This document shows, piece after piece, positions 9,341 through 37,250 of a stretch of DNA of 37,739 nt (within the stretch, counting starts at the first letter, position 1; each line of letters starts with the position of its first letter). The translations under genes and the position numbers were made by a program. The notes beneath the pieces were generated by a model. The model did no database searches and was not told the DNA's origin. It worked only from the letters and a program-made list of their open reading frames with translations. Location: IMG/VR virus record IMGVR_UViG_3300048918_000580, positions 1 to 37,739 of that record, one strand, 5' to 3'. The stretch is from a virus.

Positions 9341-9679
9341 TCAGTTGAGCGCCATGGGCGCGTAACGGGTGGATCCGGCCTCGGTGCTGGGCGGCGTAGT
9401 CGAGGACGGGGGAAGCTGGCCAGCGCCCGACTGGGCCGCAGGCACGACGATGTCGTTGGAGCGGCGCTCCACGATGGGGAGAGAGACCGCGCGGGAAGGG
9501 GTGAGGCTGGGCACCAGCGTGCGGACGATGCCGAGATGCGCCACGCAGCGGTGGCCACACTCGACGTTCATGCAGTCGAGGTAGATCTCGCGCACCAGGT
9601 TGCTGAGCTGCCGCGATGTGATGGTGCGCATGCGGCCTTGGCAGTGCGGGCAGGCGATCGTATTCCGGATGGCTGTCAT
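9341..9679 (-). CDS. ogr: Ogr/Delta-like zinc-finger late activator
   Basis: A transcription activator of 112 residues. The four Cys at 10, 13, 36 and 41 give exactly the C-X2-C-X22-C-X4-C finger of P2 Ogr and P4 Delta, and the surrounding sequence (CPHCQGRMRT, YLDCMNVECGH) fits the family. Ogr proteins bind a dyad about 55 bp upstream of late start sites and contact the RNA polymerase alpha subunit. The protein is longer than Ogr (72 aa) because of a Pro/Ser-rich tail. Here it lies early in the repressor-controlled transcript rather than after gene D as in P2. Its likely targets are the dyads at 23917-23940 and 30860-30883. Confidence 0.9.
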   Translation of the reverse strand: MTAIRNTIACPHCQGRMRTITSRQLSNLVREIYLDCMNVECGHRCVAHLGIVRTLVPSLTPSRAVSLPIVERRSNDIVVPAAQSGAGQLPPSSTTPPSTEAGSTRYAPMALN

Positions 9680-22928: not shown

Positions 22929-23281
22929 ACCGGTGCCCCTGTGCGCACGTCGACGCTCAGCGATGCGTCGGCGCCGGTGTCAACGAGGCGCCCCGTGATG
23001 GTGAGAATCCAACGCCCGGCCATGGCGTCATCGGCCGACAGAGCCACCCGCTTCACCTCGATGCGAGGTTCCCAGCGGATCAAAGCCGCAGCGGCGGCGG
23101 CGTAGAGTAGGACGAGGGTGGCGGGATTCGCCGGTGCGTCGATGAGGTCGGGAAGCTGGCTGCCAAAGTCACGCCGCGCGATGCGGCTGCCCAGCGGCGT
23201 GGAGAGAATGACGCCAATGGATTGCGCCAGGTGCGCGGTTCCCGACAGCGGTTCACCGGTGGTGCGGTCCATGCCGTTCAT
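22925..23281 (-). CDS. W: baseplate wedge protein W (gp25-like)
   Basis: A 118-residue protein of the GPW/gp25 family, with TAHLAQSIGVILSTPLGSR, RRDFGSQLPDLIDAP and the conserved RWEPRIEVKRV segment that carries the EPR motif. In contractile tails this lysozyme-related small protein nucleates sheath assembly at the baseplate. Both ends are ATGA overlaps with V and J. Confidence 0.95.
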   Translation of the reverse strand: MNGMDRTTGEPLSGTAHLAQSIGVILSTPLGSRIARRDFGSQLPDLIDAPANPATLVLLYAAAAAALIRWEPRIEVKRVALSADDAMAGRWILTITGRLVDTGADASLSVDVRTGAPV

Positions 23282-23880
23282 GACGCCACCGGCTTGCCGC
23301 TGATACCGCTGCCCGGCTGCACCTTGTCGTGGGGGTGGTTCTTGAGACTGATGGGCCCGGCCTTGACGTCGGCATCGGTGGTGATGTCGCTGTCGGCGTG
23401 CAACGTGCTGTCGAACGTGACCGCCTCGGAGACATGGAGCTTGCCGGCGATGTCGACGTCGCCTGTCAGCTTGAATCCGTCAGGCGCAATGGCCTCAACC
23501 CGTCCACCGGCAGGCAACGAGGCCTTCAGGAGGTGAGTGGCCATGTCGTACAGGAGGACAGCGCCATCGCCGAAAGCCATGACGACGTTGTCGGCGTTGG
23601 CGTCGTCCGGCTTCGGTAACGCGTTGGAGAACAGCGCCGGCATCGCAACACCAGCCGCCAGGTCGCCATTGGGCGAGACCACCATGACTTGCTCGCCGAT
23701 CGACGGCGGATTCCAGATACGTACGCGGCCCGCGCGAGGTGTGATCCAGGGCAGGGGCTTGGTCGTGACGCCGCCGGTCTTGATCGTGACCCGCTGGATG
23801 TCCACGTCGACAGTCGCCACGGTGCCGTAGCGGATCAGGTTCGCGAGAATGCGCAGGGCGTCGTCAAGCATGCCCGCCAT
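23278..23880 (-). CDS. V: baseplate spike protein V
   Basis: A 200-residue baseplate assembly protein of the gpV/gp45 spike family: an OB-fold domain (RYGTVATVDVDIQRVTIKT; WNPPSIGEQVMVVSPNGDL) followed by a beta-helix tip in which the ending with DVDIAGKLHVSE and HADSDITTDADVKAGPI repeats and the HPHDKVQPG Fe-binding-like tip are visible. It is the membrane-piercing tip. The start is uncertain: ATGs at 23880 and 23871 both lack an RBS. The Ogr-type dyad at 23917-23940 predicts transcription starting close to these codons. Confidence 0.92.
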   Translation of the reverse strand: MAGMLDDALRILANLIRYGTVATVDVDIQRVTIKTGGVTTKPLPWITPRAGRVRIWNPPSIGEQVMVVSPNGDLAAGVAMPALFSNALPKPDDANADNVVMAFGDGAVLLYDMATHLLKASLPAGGRVEAIAPDGFKLTGDVDIAGKLHVSEAVTFDSTLHADSDITTDADVKAGPISLKNHPHDKVQPGSGISGKPVAS

Positions 23881-23916
23881 GCTGCGCACACGCCGCACAA
23901 CGCGCAGCAATGGCGC

Positions 23917-23940
23917 GTTCTGTACACACCGTGGCAGAAC
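23917..23940 (-). promoter_or_regulatory. Ogr-type late activator site, PV
   Basis: GTTCTG-N12-CAGAAC dyad in the 62-base gap between S and V. It shares GTTCTGTACAC and CAGAACAA on the plus strand with the dyad between O and P. The dyad position and the 12-base spacing parallel the TGT-N12-ACA Ogr sites of P2. It should drive V, W, J, I, H and the following tail genes. Confidence 0.7.
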
Positions 23941-23942
23941 AA

Positions 23943-24413
23943 CTAGCGGGCCAGGTGTTCCAGCAATAGATCACGCACGAGGGCGCGATCGCGTTCACTG
24001 AATCCCAGCAAGGGCCGCTCGGGGTAGCGGATCATCTTGCCCCCAGGTGCGGCGCGATCCTGCAAGCCTTCTTGGTGCACGCGCGCCAGGCGCGCCACGC
24101 GTCCGACAAACCCTACCTCCGCACCGTCGGCGGTGGCATTGGCCTTTAACCAGCGTGCCGTGCGCAGCTTCACGAACATGGCGCCCTGTTTCCGCCGGAT
24201 CTGCCCTCGCTTATCACGCAGGCGATCGCCCTGATTCTTGCGTGCCGCGTACGGCGTACCGTCCGGCGCGACCTGGCTGGCGATGCGCTGCTGCTGGGAG
24301 CGACGAAGTGCGCGGGCGATCGAGGTGGCGAGCTGTCGACGTGCCGCCGGTGCGAGCTTCGCCAGGAGAGGGGCGGCCCATGTCTCGAGCTGGATTAGGT
24401 CGTCGGCTGCCAT
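23943..24413 (-). CDS. S: gpS-like tail completion/virion morphogenesis protein
   Basis: A 156-residue protein of the virion morphogenesis (gpS) family. Typical elements are SQQQRIASQVAPDGTPYAAR, then LRDKRGQIRRKQGAMFVKL and a C-terminal RPLLGFSERD. In P2, gpS is needed with gpR to complete the tail. It starts within the 3' end of R (19 bases of overlap). ATG at 24413 or GTG at 24419 are possible starts; neither has a clear RBS. It ends two bases before the PV dyad. Confidence 0.92.
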   Translation of the reverse strand: MAADDLIQLETWAAPLLAKLAPAARRQLATSIARALRRSQQQRIASQVAPDGTPYAARKNQGDRLRDKRGQIRRKQGAMFVKLRTARWLKANATADGAEVGFVGRVARLARVHQEGLQDRAAPGGKMIRYPERPLLGFSERDRALVRDLLLEHLAR

Positions 24414-24826
24414 AGCCACGCGGCCGTCGGATCGGCCGGCGGTTCGGCAGGGTGATCAAACTGCGTACCGTCGGCGTTCGGGTAGACCGCTTCCGTGAGG
24501 TCGATCTCGATCGCTACATCGGCCAGCTCGTTGGAGATCAATTCGCACTCGAAGCGAATGCCCCGCTTGTTGGTCGTGTCGTTCTTGAGCAAGTCGGGCT
24601 GTTCGAGTTCCACCCACTGCGTGACGGCCATCGCCAGCGTATCCATGTCGCCGGCGAAATCCTGCAACACGGCGGTCAGCTGGTAGGCATACAGCCAGCC
24701 CCGGCCAGGCGCACCGGTGGCTACCAGGTGGCCACGCTCGACGTAGATCGACAGGCGATGCGGATCCCGCGCGATGTCGGGAAGGGCGGCTAGCAACGCG
24801 GTACGGAAGCGCCCCGGCTTGTTCAT
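24395..24826 (-). CDS. R: gpR-like tail completion protein
   Basis: A 143-residue GPR family protein (MNKPGRFRTALLAALPDI, RLSIYVERGHLVATG, WLYAYQLTAVLQDFAGD, QWVELEQPDLL). It completes the tail with gpS. The ATG overlaps the TGA of the Rz gene (ATGA). Its C-terminus is Pro/Ala/Trp-rich (PPADPTAAWLWQP). Confidence 0.94.
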   Translation of the reverse strand: MNKPGRFRTALLAALPDIARDPHRLSIYVERGHLVATGAPGRGWLYAYQLTAVLQDFAGDMDTLAMAVTQWVELEQPDLLKNDTTNKRGIRFECELISNELADVAIEIDLTEAVYPNADGTQFDHPAEPPADPTAAWLWQPTT

Positions 24827-25371
24827 GGCGTCCGGGCCTGCATGTCCTGGTAGTCACGGACCAGCTGCTGCTGAAACTGGGCGTCTTGCGCCTCCCGCTT
24901 CCGTTCCCAGTCTTGCAGGGCGGTCAGCTGCTCGGCGATTTCGTGGCAGGTGCCGTAGTTGCCGACGATGACACTGGAGGCTGCAGACGCTGTAACGGCC
25001 GAGGCTTGCGCATCAGCGGCTCCGGGGCTTGGTAGCTCGGACAGATCAGCCGCGGCGTCGTGCAGGCGCACAAAGCCAAGAGGCAGAGGGAAATCACGAT
25101 CAACGCTCGGCGGCACATAGTCGGGCACCTTCAGCTGGATGGAATGGGTGGTGTCATGCACGACGATGAGGCGGTCGACGAAGTGCGTGACCGTCACCAC
25201 GGTGAGGCTGGCTGCCTGCGCGTCGAACTGCGCCGTAATGGCCTGCGTTTGGGCGAGCGTGAGCTTTCCCCGAAGCGAGCCCAGCTCGATGTGTTGCCAT
25301 CCGGCGACGACAGCGGCGGCGATCAGGAGCACGCCCAGGAAGATCAGCAACGGCTTAAGCAGAAAGTTCAT
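24823..25371 (-). CDS. lysB: inner-membrane spanin Rz (LysB-like)
   Basis: A 182-residue i-spanin. A hydrophobic N-terminal anchor (FLLKPLLIFLGVLLIAAAVVA, about residues 3-23) is followed by a Gln/Ala-rich periplasmic helix (GSLRGKLTLAQTQAIT) and a C-terminal coiled coil (QLTALQDWERKREAQ). It fuses inner and outer membranes together with the embedded Rz1. It is longer than lambda Rz by a Pro/Asp-rich insert around 80-110. It starts in an ATGA overlap with the methyltransferase. Confidence 0.88.
   Translation of the reverse strand: MNFLLKPLLIFLGVLLIAAAVVAGWQHIELGSLRGKLTLAQTQAITAQFDAQAASLTVVTVTHFVDRLIVVHDTTHSIQLKVPDYVPPSVDRDFPLPLGFVRLHDAAADLSELPSPGAADAQASAVTASAASSVIVGNYGTCHEIAEQLTALQDWERKREAQDAQFQQQLVRDYQDMQARTP
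24924..25118 (-). CDS. lysC: embedded outer-membrane spanin lipoprotein Rz1
   Basis: A 64-residue frame lying entirely inside the Rz gene in another reading frame. It has a short basic N-terminus, a hydrophobic stretch and a lipobox (LALCAC, with cleavage before the second Cys at about residue 19), then a Pro-rich mature protein (TAPATKSPSS end). These are the classical features of Rz1-type o-spanins, which reach the outer membrane and bind Rz. The ATG is at 25118. Confidence 0.88.
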   Translation of the reverse strand: MCRRALIVISLCLLALCACTTPRLICPSYQAPEPLMRKPRPLQRLQPPVSSSATTAPATKSPSS

Positions 25372-26111
25372 GCGGCGTGTTCCTCGCGTTGGGTGGAGGC
25401 TTCGGCCATGCGGCGCATGGCGACCTGGGCGTTGACCTGGTCAAGCTCGGCGCCGATGAATCGGCGGCCTTCCAGGAGCGCAGCGACGCCGGTGGTACCG
25501 GATCCCGCGAACGGATCGAGCACGATGCCGCCCGGCGGACAGCACTTGACCATTTCGCGCATCAGTTTCGTCGGCTTGCCGGTGACGTGATGCTTGTCCG
25601 ACTGGCGGATGGATTCGACGTGATAGCCGGGCAGGTAGCCGACGTCCTCGCGCGGTGGCATGTCGCCATTGCTGCCCCATACGGCGTACTCGGCGCCGTT
25701 GCGGAATCGGCCAGGTCCGCTGGGGCGACCGGCAGGCTTGAGCCAAGGGAACACACCGCGCCAGGTAGCGCCGGCCGTCTGCAGCGCGTCTGTCGTGCTT
25801 GGCAGCTGTCGCCAGTCGGTAAACAGCACGACCGGCGCGCCAGGCTTGGCGATGCGCAGGCACTCGGACAGCCACAACGTGACCCATAGCGTCCAGCTTC
25901 GCTGGTCGCGGTTGTCGCCGCTGAAGTTGCGGTGTTCGCGCTTTACGTCGCTGCCGACGTACTTGGAGACGGTGGACTGTTGCGTGCGGGCGGTCATATG
26001 CAGGCCGCCGGAGCTGTACGGCGGATCCGTGATCACCGCATCGACGGAGGCATCGGGAAGGGAACGCAGGAAGGCAAGGCATTCGCCCTGATGAAGCTGA
26101 AACGGGGGCAC
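25368..26111 (-). CDS. DNA N6-adenine or N4-cytosine methyltransferase
   Basis: A 247-residue DNA methyltransferase of the beta class. The catalytic motif DPPY is at residues 29-32, and the S-adenosylmethionine binding motif DPFAGSGTT comes near the C-terminus at about 195-203. The target-recognition region lies between (GDNRDQRSW; WLKPAGRPSGPGRF). No restriction partner is present, so it probably protects phage DNA from host enzymes or marks it. It starts with GTG and sits inside the lysis cassette, between endolysin and Rz, with an ATGA overlap to Rz. Confidence 0.93.
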   Translation of the reverse strand: MPPFQLHQGECLAFLRSLPDASVDAVITDPPYSSGGLHMTARTQQSTVSKYVGSDVKREHRNFSGDNRDQRSWTLWVTLWLSECLRIAKPGAPVVLFTDWRQLPSTTDALQTAGATWRGVFPWLKPAGRPSGPGRFRNGAEYAVWGSNGDMPPREDVGYLPGYHVESIRQSDKHHVTGKPTKLMREMVKCCPPGGIVLDPFAGSGTTGVAALLEGRRFIGAELDQVNAQVAMRRMAEASTQREEHAA

Positions 26112-26112
26112 G

Positions 26113-26682
26113 CTAGTGGATCTCCACGCGGTTGAGGATCCAGCCGAAGAGATACTTCCGCTGGGAGGGCTTGGCTTCGGTGATTTCGAGGTAGCGGGTG
26201 GCCTGCACGCCGTTGAGGCCGCGCATCATGGCGGTGATGCCCTGGGGACCACGCCAAGCAAGGAAGGCGCGCAGAGCATCGAGCGTGACGTTGCCGATGC
26301 GCCCATCGACGTGCAAGTCGCCGTAGCGGCTGCCGGTATCGTTGAAGCCGTTGAGCCAGCGCTGCAGAAACATGGATGCCATGCCGGTACCCATGTTGGC
26401 GCCGGTGTCGATCAGCTCGGCGCCGATGTTCGGTTCGATCCAGAACACGTCACCGAAGCGCGGTTCATCGACGTAGCGCTTGCGGTAGATCGCCCGGGCC
26501 GTGGCCTCGGGCAGATCCTTCATCGGTCCGGTGTAGCCGAAGGCTCGCGCGGCGGCGATGGTGATCCCCCAGCGCGTTTCCTTGCCGGCGTCGTCAGGGT
26601 CGTTCGTGTAAGCGTCCCAGCCTTCGGCCTTCATCACACCGGTGATGATTTGGTCGAGACGCTGCTCCGGCAGGGTGATCAC
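26113..26682 (-). CDS. endolysin, glycoside hydrolase 108 family
   Basis: A 189-residue muramidase-type endolysin. The N-terminus has KAEGWDAYTNDPDDAGKET, the catalytic motif of GH108 with Glu20, followed by RWGIT. The peptidoglycan-binding 3 domain lies in the second half (GRIGNVTLDALRAFLAWRG). There is no signal peptide, so the holin must release it. I take GTG at 26682, which gives a GTGA overlap with the holin stop, like other joints of this operon; a GTG at 26685 is also possible. It replaces the P2 lysozyme K. Confidence 0.92.
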   Translation of the reverse strand: MITLPEQRLDQIITGVMKAEGWDAYTNDPDDAGKETRWGITIAAARAFGYTGPMKDLPEATARAIYRKRYVDEPRFGDVFWIEPNIGAELIDTGANMGTGMASMFLQRWLNGFNDTGSRYGDLHVDGRIGNVTLDALRAFLAWRGPQGITAMMRGLNGVQATRYLEITEAKPSQRKYLFGWILNRVEIH

Positions 26683-27032
26683 CACGATCGCCCCCGGAAC
26701 CGCATGACCAGGTGCTGGAACACGCGCGTCGCAGCCGCGGTGATTGATCGCATCAGGTGGGCGGTGTTGCCGCGGTGGTAAAGGAATAGCCACGCGATCG
26801 CGAAGGTGGCCAAGGCTTCAAAGGGTCCCGGCGGCGGTTTGATGCCGAACACCAGCTTGATCGCCACCGCGGTGCACACCACGACGTAGACCCAGGAAAT
26901 CCACGCGTACAGGTGCCGGTGCCGCGACTCGCCACGACGGAAGGTCAGGACGCTCAGGATGATGGCCAGGCAGGACACAAGCTGGAGGAACGGCCAGATG
27001 CCAAGCTGCGCGACATGGGTGAGGAAGTGCAT
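26679..27032 (-). CDS. phage holin, three transmembrane segments
   Basis: A 117-residue membrane protein with hydrophobic helices near residues 9-29 (LGIWPFLQLVSCLAIILSV), 41-63 (LYAWISWVYVVVCTAVAIK) and 72-88 (EALATFAIAWLFLYH). The basic C-terminus (RVFQHLVMRFRGRS) is typical for holins. It overlaps the endolysin start and follows the second membrane protein by 2 bases. It is the probable pore-former that times lysis; resembles putative 3TM phage holins (Phage_holin_3 types). Confidence 0.85.
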   Translation of the reverse strand: MHFLTHVAQLGIWPFLQLVSCLAIILSVLTFRRGESRHRHLYAWISWVYVVVCTAVAIKLVFGIKPPPGPFEALATFAIAWLFLYHRGNTAHLMRSITAAATRVFQHLVMRFRGRSW

Positions 27033-27034
27033 GG

Positions 27035-27391
27035 TCAGGCTCCGCTCTTGGAGGAGAAGGTGGAGAGGTCGAAGTTCTTGGCGCGCTCGACCACCTGCGT
27101 GGCGATCGTGATGATCGTGGCGCCGCCCAGAAATGCGGCGAGTCCGATGCTTTGCAGGGGAAGATGGGCGAGGACGTCAGGGGCGGCCACATAGCCGCCC
27201 ACGGCACTCACGCCGAGATAAACCGCACGACGCCATAGGGGCAGATCCTTGGCCATCGTCACGAACAGCGCGCCGCCGGCGAGGGCGCCGACCAGCGCAT
27301 TGCCATCCACGCCAGGGATCAGCGCGGTGGCGGTCGCGGCGCCGGCGACGGCGGCAGTGGTGGCGAGCGTGGCGAGAGTCGGCTCGGGCAT
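27035..27391 (-). CDS. second holin-like membrane protein
   Basis: A 118-residue membrane protein with about four short hydrophobic segments rich in Ala and Gly (ATLATTAAVAGAATATALI; ALVGALAGGALFVTMAK; VYLGVSAVGGYVAAP; SIGLAAFLGGATIITIAT). It occupies the place of P2 gene Y (holin), directly behind X. Because another holin-like gene follows, one of the two may be an antiholin. ATG at 27391; gap of 2 bases to each neighbour. Confidence 0.82.
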   Translation of the reverse strand: MPEPTLATLATTAAVAGAATATALIPGVDGNALVGALAGGALFVTMAKDLPLWRRAVYLGVSAVGGYVAAPDVLAHLPLQSIGLAAFLGGATIITIATQVVERAKNFDLSTFSSKSGA

Positions 27392-27393
27392 CG

Positions 27394-27606
27394 TCAATCC
27401 CAAAGTTGAAGGGTGGGGAGGATTGGCGCGGTGGCGGCGCTGCGCTCGGGCAGCGTCACGAGCGTGCCTTCGGGGAGAATCGGGCCGAGACTGGCCAGCC
27501 CGCGATTGAGTTCGAACACCTGCGCAACAACGTCGGCGGTGGTGCCCAGCTCGCGCCAACAGATGGCGTCGACGGTGTCGCCCTGCCGTGCGCGGATGGT
27601 GGCCAT
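27394..27606 (-). CDS. X: tail protein X (LysM-like)
   Basis: A 70-residue protein of the P2 gpX family, a LysM-like domain (ATIRARQGDTVDAICWREL and FELNRGLASLGPILPEGTL). It is a small tail/baseplate hub component. It starts in a one-base overlap (TGATG) with the L stop. Same position as in P2, between L and the holin. Confidence 0.94.
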   Translation of the reverse strand: MATIRARQGDTVDAICWRELGTTADVVAQVFELNRGLASLGPILPEGTLVTLPERSAATAPILPTLQLWD

Positions 27607-28085
27607 CAGACGAGTTCCACCACGTTGCGTGGCTTGCCGAGAATGTCGGCAATGGCCCACCAGGCGTTACGACGGAAGTCATCTGCGCTGGTGTCCTCGC
27701 CCATGGCGCGGTAGTTGCCCGCCTGGGTGTTGTCCCAGTCGCGTGACTTTTCAGCGACGTCAGCCTGCACGGTGGATGCCACCGCGCGCAGGTAGCGGTG
27801 CACGATGGCCGAATGGTTGGCCACGGTTTCACCAATGTCTTCTGCCGTCGTCCAGCCCGCGGCAACCTGCGTGGCCTTGAACACGGCCAGCTGGCCATTC
27901 ACGTCGAGCATCGCCTCGATGGCGCTGGCCTTGAGGCGTTCGTCGGTGACGTTGCCCGTCAGGCGCGTGCTTGCACGCAGGTTCATCAAGTCGAGGTCGG
28001 GCCAGAAGCCGTCGTTCGTGATGATCGTGGGGCTGGGCGCGGGTGGTGAAGCTTGGGCGCCGCCGTTGGCAATCAAACTGCCCAT
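27606..28085 (-). CDS. L: head completion/stabilisation protein L
   Basis: A 159-residue head completion protein of the GPL family (PDLDLMNLRASTRLTGNVT, DERLKASAIEAMLDVNGQL, SRDWDNTQAGNYRAMGE, RRNAWWAIADILG). It stabilises packaged capsids at the connector. It is separated from M by a 95-base gap with a long hairpin. Confidence 0.94.
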   Translation of the reverse strand: MGSLIANGGAQASPPAPSPTIITNDGFWPDLDLMNLRASTRLTGNVTDERLKASAIEAMLDVNGQLAVFKATQVAAGWTTAEDIGETVANHSAIVHRYLRAVASTVQADVAEKSRDWDNTQAGNYRAMGEDTSADDFRRNAWWAIADILGKPRNVVELV

Positions 28086-28102
28086 GGGTACCTCGAATAA
28101 AT

Positions 28103-28164
28103 CCGGCGGTGGACGGGTGGTTCACTGCATGCCTTTCGGCATCGATCGCCACCCGTGCCGCCGG
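28103..28164 (-). repeat. long hairpin between M and L
   Basis: CCGGCGG (28103-28109) pairs with CCGCCGG (28158-28164) and CGGGTGG (28114-28120) with CCACCCG (28149-28155); the loop holds a further ATGCC-TTTC-GGCAT stem. There is no T run. Probably an RNA processing, stability or attenuation element between head genes; function inferred. Confidence 0.5.
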
Positions 28165-28180
28165 GTGCGGTGGGGGTCGC

Positions 28181-28888
28181 TCAGGTGCCGCCTTCCGGCA
28201 GCTGTTTGGTACCGGTGTTGCCGGATGCGTTGCGCAGCTTGCGCTCCAGCTGCTCGATGTCCTTCTTGGCGCCGACTTTCTCGTTGAGCTCGACGGCGCG
28301 GCGCAGATGTTCCAGCGCGCCTTGGTCGTCGGTTCCCGCCTTGGCCAAGTGTCGGCCGATGGCGAAATGCAGCTTGGCGCGCACCTGGTCAGGCATGTCG
28401 CGCGGCTCGGTCAGGGCGAACACCTCGCGCAGTACGTCCAGGTCGAAGGGCTTGTCGGCAGCGAAGGCCTTGAGTGCCTGTTCGGCCGGTTCCTCGGCGA
28501 TCAGCGTGGCCGGCGTGCGCTCGAAGCGATCGGGCAGCGCCAGGTTGTGGTCGAGCACGTAGCGGGCCACGTCGATCGCGCCGGCGAAGTCGCCGACATC
28601 GATGCGCCAGGTCAGCACGTAGCCGAGCACGTCGTCCTGCACACCGTTGCCCGAAGCCAGCACGCCCTTCACGTAGTCGGCGTAGTCGGGAAGGACTTCG
28701 CGCTTGACGTCGATCTTGCGCTCGATCGACTGCACATCCTTGAGGCGTCGGCGATCGGTGTCCAGTTTCGCGCGCATGAGCGCGTGCGCCTGGGATGTGG
28801 AGCGGGTGACTACTGCGCCGGGCGCCGCGTTAGCGGTCGCCCGGGCAGCCTGCACACGCATCAGGTGACGTTGTGCGGGGGTGGACAT
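28181..28888 (-). CDS. M: terminase small subunit M
   Basis: A 235-residue terminase endonuclease subunit of the GPM family (MSTPAQRHLMRVQAARAT, KLDTDRRRLKDVQSIERK, LPDYADYVKGVLASGNG, DDVLGYVLTWRIDVGDF). It cuts cos and works with gpP. The C-terminal third has TPR-like helices (QGALEHLRRAVELNEKVG), a bit longer than P2 gpM. It ends with an acidic/Gly-rich tail before the hairpin region. Confidence 0.94.
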   Translation of the reverse strand: MSTPAQRHLMRVQAARATANAAPGAVVTRSTSQAHALMRAKLDTDRRRLKDVQSIERKIDVKREVLPDYADYVKGVLASGNGVQDDVLGYVLTWRIDVGDFAGAIDVARYVLDHNLALPDRFERTPATLIAEEPAEQALKAFAADKPFDLDVLREVFALTEPRDMPDQVRAKLHFAIGRHLAKAGTDDQGALEHLRRAVELNEKVGAKKDIEQLERKLRNASGNTGTKQLPEGGT

Positions 28889-28893
28889 GTCGA

Positions 28894-29907
28894 TCAGGCC
28901 CAGTTGCCGAACTCGATGTTCTCAACCAGGACCGCGAGACCGTTGTCCTCGACCACATACGCGTCATTGCTCGACTCGTAGTTGGCGATGCGGTCCCGCT
29001 TGGCCTCGTCCACCATCTGGCGGCGACGTGCGCCATTCTGGAAGTAGACCGACAGGTTGTCCGGTCGGGTGATCAACAGCGAGTTCGACGGGAAGTACGG
29101 CACCAGCAGGCCCTGCAGGCCGCCAATGGTCTTCTGGCTCACCAGCAGTTGGGTGGCCAACTCATCCTGCGCACCCTGGGAGCGGTTGACCAGGGGGAAG
29201 TACTTGTCGTGCATCAGCTTGCGGCCCACGATGGCGCGCAGGCCGGTGTCTTCCTGATACCAGGGATCCAGCAGGGTGATGGCGTCCACCACCAGGGCGT
29301 CCAGGTTCTCGTAGTCGCCGCCCGGACCAACGCGGACCTTGCCGGATGCCGCCACCACTTCGTGCATGACGCGTTCGGGGGCCTGCTCGCGCAGGTTCTG
29401 CAGCCAGCCTTTGTTGACGTCCTGCAGCAGCGGGTGGGCGCTGAGATCGGTGTCGGCGGCGACGCTCGTGCCGTTCCAGCCGATCATCATGCGATCGAGA
29501 CCCTGCTGGTTGAGGATGGCAGTGGCCAGTCGCTTCTGGAAGTCCGGGAACTTGGCCCAGGCATCGAGCAGCGCATACGGGAAACCCGTGTCGAAGTTGG
29601 TTTGCTCGCAGACGTAGCCCGCATCCGTGAGGTTGGACACGTCGCGCGGGTTGCGATCCTTCAGCGCGGTATTGGTGCGGCTGGCCACGGGGCCAGAGAC
29701 GCCCAGGCGCAGCTTCGCGCCGGATTTCTCATCCACACCGATCATGTTGATCAGCTTGAGGAAGGCGCTCGACTCCTGGATGGCATTCTCCAGCTTCTGC
29801 TGGATCGTCGGAGCCACGGTGAATTTAACCGTGGCGTCGGGCACGCTGTTGAGCGTGGCCAGGTGCACGGCCAGGGCGATGAACTTGAGGCGGGTAGCGT
29901 TATGCAT
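28894..29907 (-). CDS. N: major capsid protein N
   Basis: A 337-residue HK97-fold major capsid protein of the P2 gpN family: KVSPTIQQ-like segment (KFTVAPTIQQKLENAIQES), FLKLINMIGVDEKSGAKL, TNFDTGFPYALLDAWAKF, QQGLDRMMIGWNGTSVA. In P2 the N-terminal 31 residues are cut off by the protease gpO, which probably applies here too. AGGGA lies 5 bases before the ATG at 29907, so the longer frame to 29991 is not used. Confidence 0.96.
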   Translation of the reverse strand: MHNATRLKFIALAVHLATLNSVPDATVKFTVAPTIQQKLENAIQESSAFLKLINMIGVDEKSGAKLRLGVSGPVASRTNTALKDRNPRDVSNLTDAGYVCEQTNFDTGFPYALLDAWAKFPDFQKRLATAILNQQGLDRMMIGWNGTSVAADTDLSAHPLLQDVNKGWLQNLREQAPERVMHEVVAASGKVRVGPGGDYENLDALVVDAITLLDPWYQEDTGLRAIVGRKLMHDKYFPLVNRSQGAQDELATQLLVSQKTIGGLQGLLVPYFPSNSLLITRPDNLSVYFQNGARRRQMVDEAKRDRIANYESSNDAYVVEDNGLAVLVENIEFGNWA

Positions 29908-29962
29908 GGTTCCCTCGGGAGGCGGTGGTTCGGGTGGGGCGGGTTCGCTCGGGTCGGCGGCG

Positions 29963-30778
29963 TCAGAACTCGGTGAGCAATTCGTTGCCACCGGTGGCCA
30001 CCGGGCGGGTGGTGGCGCCGGCCGGGGTCTTGCTGAAGGCCTCTTCCAGAACCTTCAAGCGCGCGTCGATGGCATCGCTCTGCTGCTTGGTAGCGTTGAC
30101 GGTCTGCTCGACCTGCTGCAGCTGCTGGGCGGTCTGTGTGCTCTGCGTCTGGCCGTGTTCGGCGACTTCCTCGAGCGCAGTTTCGATGTCACTGAAGCGC
30201 TTGTTATCGTCCGTTTCCTTGCGGGCAAACAGCTTCTTGACCCTGTCCAGGATGTTCGGCGCTTCCGTGACATCGACGAACTCGATGGCGGTCTCGGTGG
30301 CAACGCTGAAATGGTTGTCGGCGTGCTGCTTGCGCGGGGTGAGCGGGCTGCTGTCCGGCTTGTTGGCCGTGAACTCCAGCATGTCGGTGCCCAGGCTGGC
30401 CGGGCTATCGGTAACGGCCAGGCCCTGCAGGTAAGCCTTGCCGGTGTCGGCGAACTTCGGGTTCACCTCGATCGAGGTGAAGGTCTTCTGGTAGCCATTC
30501 ACCAGCTTGACCAGGGCGTCGGACGGGTTGATCTCGGCCAGCAGCTGCAGCTTGCCGTCGCTGTTTTCCTGGGTGCTCAACGATTCGACGTAGCCGTAGT
30601 TCTTGAACGGGCTGTCCGGCGAGACGCCACGGATGTGCTCGATGTTGATGCCGGCCTTGTACGTGGCCGGGTTGTAGCTCGCGGCCATCTGCTCGATCCA
30701 CGAGCGTTCGATGGTGCGACCGTCGACGGTGGCGCCTTCGGTGGCGATGACGAACTTCTTGGACTTCTTGCCGGCCAT
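29963..30778 (-). CDS. O: capsid scaffold and protease O
   Basis: A 271-residue scaffold of the GPO family: N-terminal serine protease and C-terminal coiled-coil scaffold. Asp19, His48 (NIEHIRG) and Ser102 (TFTSIEVNP) match the catalytic triad of P2 gpO (Asp19, His48, Ser107). The scaffold coil is at about 190-250 (IETALEEVAEHGQTQ; QQLQQVEQTVNATKQQ). It shapes the procapsid and then digests itself. It is the first leftward late gene next to the divergent O/P promoter region. Confidence 0.95.
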   Translation of the reverse strand: MAGKKSKKFVIATEGATVDGRTIERSWIEQMAASYNPATYKAGINIEHIRGVSPDSPFKNYGYVESLSTQENSDGKLQLLAEINPSDALVKLVNGYQKTFTSIEVNPKFADTGKAYLQGLAVTDSPASLGTDMLEFTANKPDSSPLTPRKQHADNHFSVATETAIEFVDVTEAPNILDRVKKLFARKETDDNKRFSDIETALEEVAEHGQTQSTQTAQQLQQVEQTVNATKQQSDAIDARLKVLEEAFSKTPAGATTRPVATGGNELLTEF

Positions 30779-30859
30779 GGTGTGCCTCGATGCGGGTGGG
30801 TGTCTGAACGTGTAGGTCGCCAGCATCGAGAGAGGGGCGCGTAGCGTCCACGCGGCGCG

Positions 30860-30883
30860 GTTCTGTACACCTCGGCTCAGAAC
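30860..30883. promoter_or_regulatory. Ogr-type late activator site, PO/PP
   Basis: GTTCTG-N12-CAGAAC dyad in the 150-base divergent gap between O (start 30778) and P (start 30929). Read leftwards it shares GTGTACAGAAC and a following GCGCC with the PV copy at 23917-23940, so the main orientation is probably towards O. One dyad could serve both directions, since its centre is about 55 bases from plausible start sites on either side (near 30817 and 30926). No strong -10 is visible, as usual for activator-dependent late promoters. Confidence 0.7.
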
Positions 30884-30928
30884 AAGCCACGGCAGGAAGG
30901 GGCCGGTTGCGTCCCTACGCTGTCGGCC

Positions 30929-32704
30929 ATGCTCATTCCCGCCATCGGTACCGATCCCCGCACGCTCGCCCGCAGCCTGTTCTTTCAGGGGTGGAGCATC
31001 ACCACCATTGCCGACCACATCGGCCAGGCGCGATCGACGGTGGAATCGTGGAAGCAGCGCGACGGCTGGGCGAACGCCAAGCCGATCGACCGCGTCGATG
31101 CGGTGCTGGAGGCGCGGCTATGCCAGCTGATTGCGAAGGATCGAAAGGACGCGCACGACTTCAAGGAGATCGACCTGCTTGCCCGCCAGGTGGAGCGCAT
31201 CGCGCGCGTGCACCGCTATGAGGCGCCCGGTGGCCACGAGGGTCACCTCAACGACAAGGTGGCGAACCGGAACGCCGGCCCGAAGAAGCCCGCGGCGCGC
31301 AACGAGTTCAGTCCCGAGCAGGCCAAACGCCTGGTCGACGCCTACATGGACAGCATGTTCGGCTACCAGCGCCACTGGCATAACGCGCTGTCGCATCGCA
31401 TCCGCAACATCCTGAAGTCGCGCCAGATCGGCGCCACCTTCCATTTCGCACGTGAAGCCCTGGTCGATGCGATTCGCACCGATGGCAACAACCAGATCTT
31501 CCTGTCGGCAAGCCGCGCCCAGGCCAACGTGTTCCGCCAGTACATGCAGCAGTTCGCGCGAGACGCGGCGGACATCGAGCTGAAGGGCGGGCGCGACTCG
31601 CCTATCGTGCTACCCAACGCGTCCGAGTTGATCTTCCTGGGCACCAATGCGCGCACCGCGCAGAGCTACCACGGCAATCTGTACTTCGACGAATATTTTT
31701 GGGTCCACAGCTTCCAGGCGCTGCGCAAGGTGGCGTCGGGTATGGCCATCCATAAGCGGTGGCGGCAGACCTACTTCTCTACGCCGTCGGCCCTGAGCCA
31801 CGACGCCTACCCTTTCTGGTCGGGCGCGCTGTTCAACAAGGGGCGCGCCAAGGCCGACCGCGTCGACGTGGACATCAGTCATGCCGCCCTGGTGGCCGGC
31901 CTGCTGTGCGCCGACGGCCAATGGCGCCAGATCGTGACCGTGCTCGATGCGCTGGCTGGTGGCTGCGACCTGTTCGATATCGACCAGCTGCGCATGGAGT
32001 ACAGCGAGGAAGAGTTCCGGCAGCTGTTGATGTGCGAGTTCATCGATGACGGCCTGTCGGTGTTCGCCTTCGCCTTGGTGAAGCGCTGCCTGGTCGACAG
32101 CTGGGATGTGTGGGAGGACTTCCGTGCCGACGCCCCGCGGCCGATCGGCAATGCTGAGGTGTCGATCGGCTACGACCCGTCCAAGGGTGCCGGCGGCGGT
32201 GATCCATCCGGACTGACGGTCAATTCGCTGCCTACCGCGCAGTACGACCGCTTCCGCGTGTTGGAGAAACACCAGCTGGCCGGGCAGGACTTCGATGGCC
32301 AGGCGGGCTTCATCAAGGCGCAGTGCGATCGCTACAACGTCGTCGACATCGCCATCGACACCACGGGTATCGGCACGGGCGTGCATCAGCTGGTGAAGCA
32401 ATTCTTCCCGGCTGTGCGGGCGATCCAGTATTCGCCCGAGGTGAAGCAGCGCATGGTGATGAAGACGCACGACGTCATGACCAAGGGCCGCCTCGAATTC
32501 GACGCCGGTTGGACCGACTTGGCCGCGGCTTTCATGGCCATCCGAAAGACCGTGACGGCAAGCGGCCGCCACGTGACCTATGACGCCAGCCGATCCGCCG
32601 ATGTCGGCCACGCGGATCTCGCCTGGTCGGTGATGCACAGCCTGATTTACGAACCGCTGGAAGGCCGTCAGGCCAACGGCAACAACGTCCTGGAGATCTA
32701 CTGA
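30929..32704 (+). CDS. P: terminase large subunit P
   Basis: A 591-residue ATPase/nuclease packaging motor of the P2 gpP family. The N-terminus holds an HTH (IGTDPRTLARSLFFQGWS; TTIADHIGQARSTVESWK). The Walker A equivalent is SRQIGAT at about 163-169, Walker B and catalytic Glu are DEYFW with Asp254 and Glu255. The RNase H-like nuclease begins near 410 with GYDPSKGAGGGDPSGLTV and has DTTGIGTGVHQLV further on. It packages DNA from cos. The 3' end overlaps Q by one base (TGATG). Confidence 0.96.
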   Translation: MLIPAIGTDPRTLARSLFFQGWSITTIADHIGQARSTVESWKQRDGWANAKPIDRVDAVLEARLCQLIAKDRKDAHDFKEIDLLARQVERIARVHRYEAPGGHEGHLNDKVANRNAGPKKPAARNEFSPEQAKRLVDAYMDSMFGYQRHWHNALSHRIRNILKSRQIGATFHFAREALVDAIRTDGNNQIFLSASRAQANVFRQYMQQFARDAADIELKGGRDSPIVLPNASELIFLGTNARTAQSYHGNLYFDEYFWVHSFQALRKVASGMAIHKRWRQTYFSTPSALSHDAYPFWSGALFNKGRAKADRVDVDISHAALVAGLLCADGQWRQIVTVLDALAGGCDLFDIDQLRMEYSEEEFRQLLMCEFIDDGLSVFAFALVKRCLVDSWDVWEDFRADAPRPIGNAEVSIGYDPSKGAGGGDPSGLTVNSLPTAQYDRFRVLEKHQLAGQDFDGQAGFIKAQCDRYNVVDIAIDTTGIGTGVHQLVKQFFPAVRAIQYSPEVKQRMVMKTHDVMTKGRLEFDAGWTDLAAAFMAIRKTVTASGRHVTYDASRSADVGHADLAWSVMHSLIYEPLEGRQANGNNVLEIY

Positions 32705-36257: not shown

Positions 36258-37250
36258 CTATTTGTCCTCATCTCTCTTCGTCACAAGTTCGTGCTGGTAG
36301 TAGGCATCTATGGGGTCGTCGAGGATCGCGTACGAACTAGATAGATTTGTTGGATCAGGATCGAGCCATGGATCGATATTCTCGGCCTTGATCGCAATGA
36401 TGCATCGGTCGTGCCCGGCCTCTTGCACTTCGGGCGGAGGGTCGCGCGTGATAGCCGCAAATCCATAGAAGCCCGGGCGATCGCCTTCCGGCTCGACGTA
36501 GCGCCAGAGGCAAGCAAGCACCATGTCTTGGTGCGGCTCTGGCGTAAAACCGATTTCAACCTTCAGCTCACGCTCTCCAGGCACCAAAGAACGCCGCTCA
36601 TTGTCGTGTAGGTTCACGCTCTCGAAAAAGCGGCTCGCAACGACGATGCCGTGCTGATAGCCGAACAGGCCCTTCCAAACGTGACGCAAGCTGTCTTTGC
36701 GTGCGTTGTAGCACCCAGGCTTGGCTTTTTCGTCGGTCTCGGTCCATCCGATGGGACGGGCGCGATAGCGCATGGGCACAATCAAGCGCTCGCCTGTCGC
36801 CGGGTCGCGAATGAGTACTGGGCAGTAGTGTCCTGGCCAGATACGGCCGAAACCTTCACCCTTGGCCATGGTGCCCAGTTCTTCGAGCTTCTCCCGGGCT
36901 GCTTTGATCTTGTTGTTTGCGACGCGCTGGTCGTTCGCCGCCTTCTTGGTCGGCTTGTGCGATGCGAGGACGGCCTCAGCTTTCATCAGGCGTTCCGTCT
37001 GCTCGGCGATTTCCTTTTCGAGCACCAGGGATACGCTGCGGTAAGCATCTACTACGGCGTCCCTGACTTGCCGTTCGCCATCGTTGCGCGGATCCATGAA
37101 TGCATCGGCCATCGCCTTGGGCATGATCTTCACCAAGTCGCCGTTGGCCTTGCGCTCCCAAAACAGTTGCACAAAAGCTTTGATGTCGAGCTTGCCGCCG
37201 AAGCGCTCGTATTTTCGATAGTCCGCGTAAACCTGCGCCGAATAGCACAT
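36258..37250 (-). CDS. SRAP/YedK-like abasic-site DNA-protein crosslinker, long variant
   Basis: A 330-residue SOS response-associated peptidase family protein. The invariant Cys2 follows Met1 (MCYSA in place of MCGR), the Asn of GCYNAR lies at about 180, the Glu of SRFFES near 206 and the His of AGHDRC near 278, so all four catalytic positions of YedK/HMCES are present. Canonical SRAP proteins have about 220 residues; this one has an extra helical coil of about 100 residues after the first strand (EKEIAEQTERLMKAEAVLA). SRAP proteins crosslink to abasic sites in single-stranded DNA. It is convergent with the PIN-like gene (9-base gap). Cargo or host. Confidence 0.88.
   Translation of the reverse strand: MCYSAQVYADYRKYERFGGKLDIKAFVQLFWERKANGDLVKIMPKAMADAFMDPRNDGERQVRDAVVDAYRSVSLVLEKEIAEQTERLMKAEAVLASHKPTKKAANDQRVANNKIKAAREKLEELGTMAKGEGFGRIWPGHYCPVLIRDPATGERLIVPMRYRARPIGWTETDEKAKPGCYNARKDSLRHVWKGLFGYQHGIVVASRFFESVNLHDNERRSLVPGERELKVEIGFTPEPHQDMVLACLWRYVEPEGDRPGFYGFAAITRDPPPEVQEAGHDRCIIAIKAENIDPWLDPDPTNLSSSYAILDDPIDAYYQHELVTKRDEDK

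Follow-up and report, generated by a model that had tools for sequence, protein, structure and literature searches.

Two GTTCT inverted repeats as probable operators of the Ogr/Delta late-gene activator in a P2-like phage genome

Introduction

Late promoters containing TGT-N12-ACA and the activator Ogr are known in phage P2 and have been predicted in the Stenotrophomonas phage Smp131 (PMC3931495), and here we describe two inverted repeats, GTTCTG-N12-CAGAAC, that very probably fill the equivalent role in IMG/VR virus record IMGVR_UViG_3300048918_000580, a stretch of 37,739 bases that we analyzed whole and refer to as the window. P2 and the window share one operator common to the divergent O and P genes, one operator upstream of V, and an activator of the Ogr_Delta zinc-ribbon type (PMC3931495). 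The annotation of the P2 record assigns one activator site to O and P together, one to V, and one to F, with 55-56 nucleotides (nt) between annotated site and annotated start, and its V start site is the first base of V.

Smp131 likewise resembles the window in having a common P/O site and an Ogr homologue (PMC3931495). It differs in its TGT-N12-AC(A/G)-type sites, in its rearranged V and J operons, and in carrying arginine at residue 11 of Ogr, where residue 1 is the first zinc cysteine. The kind of element considered here is therefore known from P2, but the spelling of the sites in the clade to which the window belongs, their fixed promoter geometry, and the layout of only two operators appear to be undescribed in the open literature that we searched.

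Results

The window has a P2-like (Peduoviridae) layout in which Pfam identifies O, N, P, Q, V, S, FI, D, and I, along with an Ogr_Delta protein. GTTCTG-N12-CAGAAC has two zero-mismatch matches in the whole window and none besides. Operator 1 (30860-30883, GTTCTGTACACCTCGGCTCAGAAC, core GTTCT-N14-AGAAC) lies in the gap between the divergent O and P genes and would be common to their promoters; operator 2 (23917-23940, GTTCTGTACACACCGTGGCAGAAC) lies directly 3' of the S stop codon, in the gap upstream of V. Both the positions and the gene context proposed in the first-pass annotation were thus borne out, with O, P, V, and S all assigned by Pfam. We consider these dyads to be operators of the phage's own late-gene activator, the Ogr/Delta zinc-ribbon protein encoded at 9341-9679, with a probability of roughly 0.88.

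On its own, the window provides moderate evidence for the dyad pair. No GTTCTG dyad pair was recovered in 200 dinucleotide shuffles of the window (0/200), but 53 of the 200 did contain two perfect 6-bp dyads with one and the same arm, of whatever sequence, at this spacing, as would be expected if the two dyads were a chance coincidence. That explanation is refuted by conservation, and we give it next to no weight: every relative tested keeps the dyads at both places, and the GTTCT arm is found 37 times in the loci compared with at most 11 matches for any other ordering of the same letters. The dyads are solid because of their position and their conservation.

Among relatives of the O protein (gpO), loci L003-L006 (IMG/VR, 56-85% identity) carry this dyad upstream of O, at the position it has in the window, while those below 50% identity lack it there, with the exception of locus L028. 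A second collection of relatives, anchored on the sheath protein FI, yielded many closer relatives. Every record with an O gene has one site ~90-115 bp upstream of O, and a site at the position of operator 1 is present in 16 further phages or prophages that have O, with exactly two copies per phage. In the V gap, GTTCT-N13/14-AGAAC occurs in 19/19 clade loci that contain this gap, the window included. The first-pass annotation had named absence of the motif from the same positions in close relatives as the finding that would speak against it, and the motif was present in all 19 testable loci. When whole records were scanned, the exact pattern was found twice in each of 15 clade virus records and once in each of two shorter fragments; the unrelated L028 record also has it twice. 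A reversed control pattern gave no match in any of these virus records except G834, which has one. One sequenced bacterial genome with a clade prophage, G272, belongs to the order of Stenotrophomonas; its prophage contains two matches, and further matches lie elsewhere in the genome. No third operator was found upstream of FI in the window or in the relatives' records, which hold only two dyad copies per genome.

The comparison also trims the element. Although the 6-bp arms are exact in the window, the arm conserved in the clade is the 5-bp GTTCT/AGAAC, with the sixth base variable on the left and nearly always C on the right, and the "shared flank" GTTCTGTACAC reported at first pass is not conserved. 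The claim that the geometry is identical to TGT-N12-ACA did not survive, because it depends on how the arms are cut. When sites are aligned on GTTxT, the spacer is N14 in the window clade (N13 at V in G272 and L120), N13 in the AP3 type, and N11 or N12 in P2.

The conserved features argue against an RNA-level or structural element, such as a terminator after S or a processing hairpin. A 6-bp stem is possible at operator 2, which immediately follows the S stop codon; however, operator 2 is not followed by a T run, operator 1 lies between divergent genes where there is nothing to terminate, and the loops are wholly variable, in contrast to the fixed arms, the fixed length of the spacer, and the fixed distance to the promoter hexamer, as for a DNA site. 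We regard an RNA element as very unlikely.

To define the promoters, we aligned 18 distinct P, 18 distinct O, and 20 distinct V promoters. A -10-like hexamer lies 32 nt from the outer edge of the operator in 55/56 of them (P 18/18, O 18/18, V 19/20), and this spacing is fixed even though the intervening DNA is variable. The hexamers are TACGCT for P, GATGCT for O, and CAGCAT or GAAGCT for V, and the O and V promoters also have a TTGCCG- or TGC-like element, 17 nt upstream of the hexamer. In the window, the putative hexamers, each 32 nt from the operator edge, are TACGCT at 30916-30921 (plus strand; 7 nt before the P start codon), GATGCT at 30822-30827 (minus strand; predicted leader of ~37 nt before O), and CAGCAT at 23879-23884 (minus strand; 7 nt before the V start codon at 23871).

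The start codon lies 7 nt past the hexamer in 16/18 P and 19/20 V promoters, so the predicted +1 is the ATG of P and of V. A Shine-Dalgarno sequence would then be impossible for these two genes, and the P (terminase) and V (baseplate spike) mRNAs are therefore predicted to be leaderless. The operator centre is ~57 nt from the start predicted in this way (about 55 nt in P2), and the P, O, and V start sites are all inferred from the alignment. The true start of V is probably ATG 23871 rather than TTG 23910, because this is the sole ATG kept in L006, L104, and L120.

Operators at the same O/P and V places in other lineages are spelled differently. The Burkholderia phage AP3 has GGTTGT-N13-ACAACC at O/P, V, and F, while KS14 and FLC5 have GTTTGT-N13-ACAAAC, Dobby has TTGTA-N11-TACAA, and vB_BpuM-ZY1 has GTGTAA-N10-TTACAC; similar lineage-specific pairs occur in many prophages. 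The last of these records (L115, OR820920, "Bacillus phage vB_BpuM-ZY1") is a Peduoviridae genome labelled with Bacillus pumilus as host and encodes a proteobacterial-type Ogr, and the label looks doubtful. In L073 and L319 (a Sphingomonas metagenome-assembled genome), the half-sites of the prophage operators are unequal within one phage, with AATCGT-N13-ACGATT at O/P and AATGGT-N13-ACCATT at V.

AP3-type operators resemble those of the window in their position, in their distance to the -10 region, and in being strongly palindromic. They differ in having G rather than C at the variable base, an N13 spacer, an additional F operator, and an Ogr with Arg11. The prophage-type sites of L028, GGTTCT-N13-AGAACC, share the GTTCT core of the window at both O/P and V; their spacer is N13, however, and the Ogr, which has Thr11, belongs to a different, Arg11-rich clade. 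The invariant core of the window clade, GTTCT, is one base off the GTTGT of P2 and AP3, and the half-site is best read as a clade-specific version of GTTGT with a single G-to-C change.

Palindromes are often used by repressors, and several sites contain CTGT...ACAG (for example GTTCTGTAGGCACGTGTACAGAAC), which brings to mind another regulator, such as a host or phage repressor of the LexA kind (CTGT-N8-ACAG in enterics). Where CTGT...ACAG is present, however, its spacing is N10 rather than the N8 of enteric LexA, and many sites contain no TGT/ACA (for example GTTCTGAACTCCTCATCACAGAAC); neither spacing nor conservation fits a LexA box, which we rejected. The dyads, of which each genome has two, are moreover confined to the late promoters of P/O and V and are not found at the repressor or early promoter, and the half-site tracks the sequence of Ogr across lineages. 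Binding by a different regulator thus seems improbable, though less so than an RNA element. An Ogr-type activator of altered specificity, as the first-pass annotation had proposed, fits best: the sites occupy the positions of the Ogr-type dyads in P2 and in those other Peduoviridae lineages whose sites could be resolved, and are kept in 19/19 loci, and the altered specificity can now be narrowed to one half-site base, GTTGT to GTTCT, which changes along with residue 11 of Ogr.

A PF04606 protein is found in the window and in relatives. The window ogr gene (9341-9679, minus strand; PF04606, E 3.1e-18) encodes 112 amino acids with the motif CX2CX22CX4C (cysteines C10, C13, C36, and C41), such that residue 11 is Ile20. 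An AlphaFold2 model of this protein is confident over residues 11-50, a block with predicted local distance difference test (pLDDT) values of 95-97. Searched by sequence against the PDB, Ogr had no clear match. The five best structural matches of the model are all NrdR zinc ribbons (43 residues, root-mean-square deviation 1.1-1.3, Z 5.5-6.8, where Z below 8 may mean merely a common arrangement), with unrelated entries scoring Z 4.5 and below.

In NrdR, bases are reported to be read by the ribbon residues D15 and R17 (PMC9110341). The alignment ends put C10 of Ogr on C3 of NrdR, which places Ile20 at NrdR position 13, or at 15 if a two-residue length difference precedes it; by either alignment, Ile20 is on the strand face shared with D15 and R17. 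This placement lends support to a contact between residue 11 and DNA without proving it. NrdR provides the closest solved fold but has nothing else in common with Ogr, being a nucleotide-sensing repressor with an ATP-cone.

We compared residue 11 with the fourth base of the half-site (base 4, the x in GTTxT) in an automatic site table in which a site was callable in 67/145 loci. Ogr has Arg11 in P2, AP3, KS14, and most other phages, and base 4 is G (GTTGT, TTTGT, CCTGT, and others), while the window clade combines Ile, Leu, Met, or Tyr at residue 11 with C at base 4. In the table, base 4 is G in 28/30 Arg11 sites, and the two exceptions are errors of shifted register. Base 4 is C in 9/9 sites with Ile, Leu, Met, Tyr, or Thr at residue 11, setting aside L246, a third apparent exception in which a one-residue insertion in the finger puts Arg at 12. 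Lys11 goes with T in 4/4 sites; the half-site, GTTT(G/A), is found at V, and two cases have it upstream of FI as well. Gln11 goes with A in 1/1 (L439, GTTAT), a single V site; no O/P site was found there, and the fetched surrounding DNA showed no O gene. The pairings Arg-G and Gln-A are textbook knowledge.

The Gln11 site, at L439:5734, is a 29-bp palindrome upstream of V, AAAGTTATCCTCGATGTGAGGATAACTTT; the element may be defective or tailocin-like, because the O gene was not found where expected in the fetched DNA.

Independent origins of these states are few: at least two for C, one for T, and one for A. The second origin of C is the L028 Ogr (Thr11), which sits inside a strongly supported clade of Arg11/GTTGT Ogrs and yet goes with GTTCT at O/P and V; the C state has at least two origins in the Ogr tree even when starred branches alone are trusted, and the GTTCT core was therefore reached independently in L028.

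A universal rule, in which any loss of Arg11 gives C, was ruled out by Ogrs with Ala11 or Val11 and Lys12, which go with other half-sites: GTTGATA-N7-TATCAAC (L311/L312) or GTTGG..., and, for L086 (Val11, Lys12), GGTTTGC-N9-GCAAACC. The occurrences of GTTGATA-N7-TATCAAC with Val11-Lys12 Ogrs at L311:3990, L312:4835, and L356:4737 (prophages G442 and G852) point to a further specificity class. No paired site was found for L267 (Tyr11) or for L098 and L277 (Gln11, Arg12). The Ogr of L267 is encoded in a rearranged P2-like element whose operator was not identified, making it a possible exception to the residue-11 relation.

The genes that flank the operators are O (capsid scaffold protease; 29963-30778, minus strand; PF05929, E 4.3e-93), which is first in the O operon; P (terminase large subunit; 30929-32704, plus strand; PF03237/PF17289/PF06056), whose start codon is at the predicted +1; V (baseplate spike; 23278-23871, minus strand; PF04717, Phage_base_V); and S (23943-24419, minus strand; Pfam). 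The ogr gene adjoins a CI-like repressor gene in divergent orientation. Elsewhere in the window, an abortive-infection-like Abi_2 gene (PF07751; 10611-11522, plus strand) is cargo between D and the CI-like repressor gene, and a SOS-response-associated peptidase (SRAP) gene lies near the right end (36258-37250, minus strand); AP3 and Smp131 also have SRAP.

Discussion

The arrangement suggests how late transcription could proceed in this phage. Because the ogr gene lies beside the CI-like repressor gene and diverges from it, Ogr would be made as an early product after induction. It would then bind the inverted repeat GTTCT-N14-AGAAC, presumably with one zinc ribbon per half-site, and from there bring RNA polymerase to promoters that have the -10-like hexamer at its distance of 32 nt from the edge of the operator. 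The P(Q) and O(NM...S) operons, which diverge, would both be served by operator 1, and V through to D by operator 2; lacking an F operator of their own, the genes from FI to D are probably transcribed from the V promoter.

Several points weigh against assigning the dyads to Ogr, in addition to the frequency of same-arm pairs in shuffled DNA. The half-site does not match a literal TGT-N12-ACA, and the clade does not conserve TGT/ACA; the F operator of P2 has no counterpart in the window clade; and the hexamers TACGCT, GATGCT, and CAGCAT are poor matches to sigma-70. Further differences from P2 are GTTCT in place of GTTGT, N14 in place of N11 or N12, the predicted leaderless P mRNA, and the location of ogr, which follows D in P2 and lies in the early region of the window.

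The way in which base 4 follows residue 11 across relatives suggests a simple DNA-reading rule. It is somewhat likelier than a coin toss that residue 11 sets base 4 of GTTxT in a near one-to-one code, in which Arg specifies G, Gln specifies A, Lys specifies T, and small or hydrophobic residues or Tyr specify C, and that the window clade, by losing Arg11, changed its specificity and thereby shielded its late genes from other P2-like phages and satellites, the same switch having occurred independently in the L028 lineage.

This relation between residue 11 and base 4 is the main interest of the locus, since it makes Ogr/Delta specificity testable with natural variants: comparing lineages turns one odd dyad into a testable rule for operator choice by the Ogr/Delta zinc ribbon. 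If the rule is true, it would hint at how the ribbon fold common to Ogr and NrdR achieves base-specific reading. It is Ogr/Delta specificity that determines which helper phage can be exploited by a P4-like satellite and which co-resident prophages can cross-activate each other's late genes, and a readable code, if true, would make helper-satellite pairs and cross-activation predictable from sequence.
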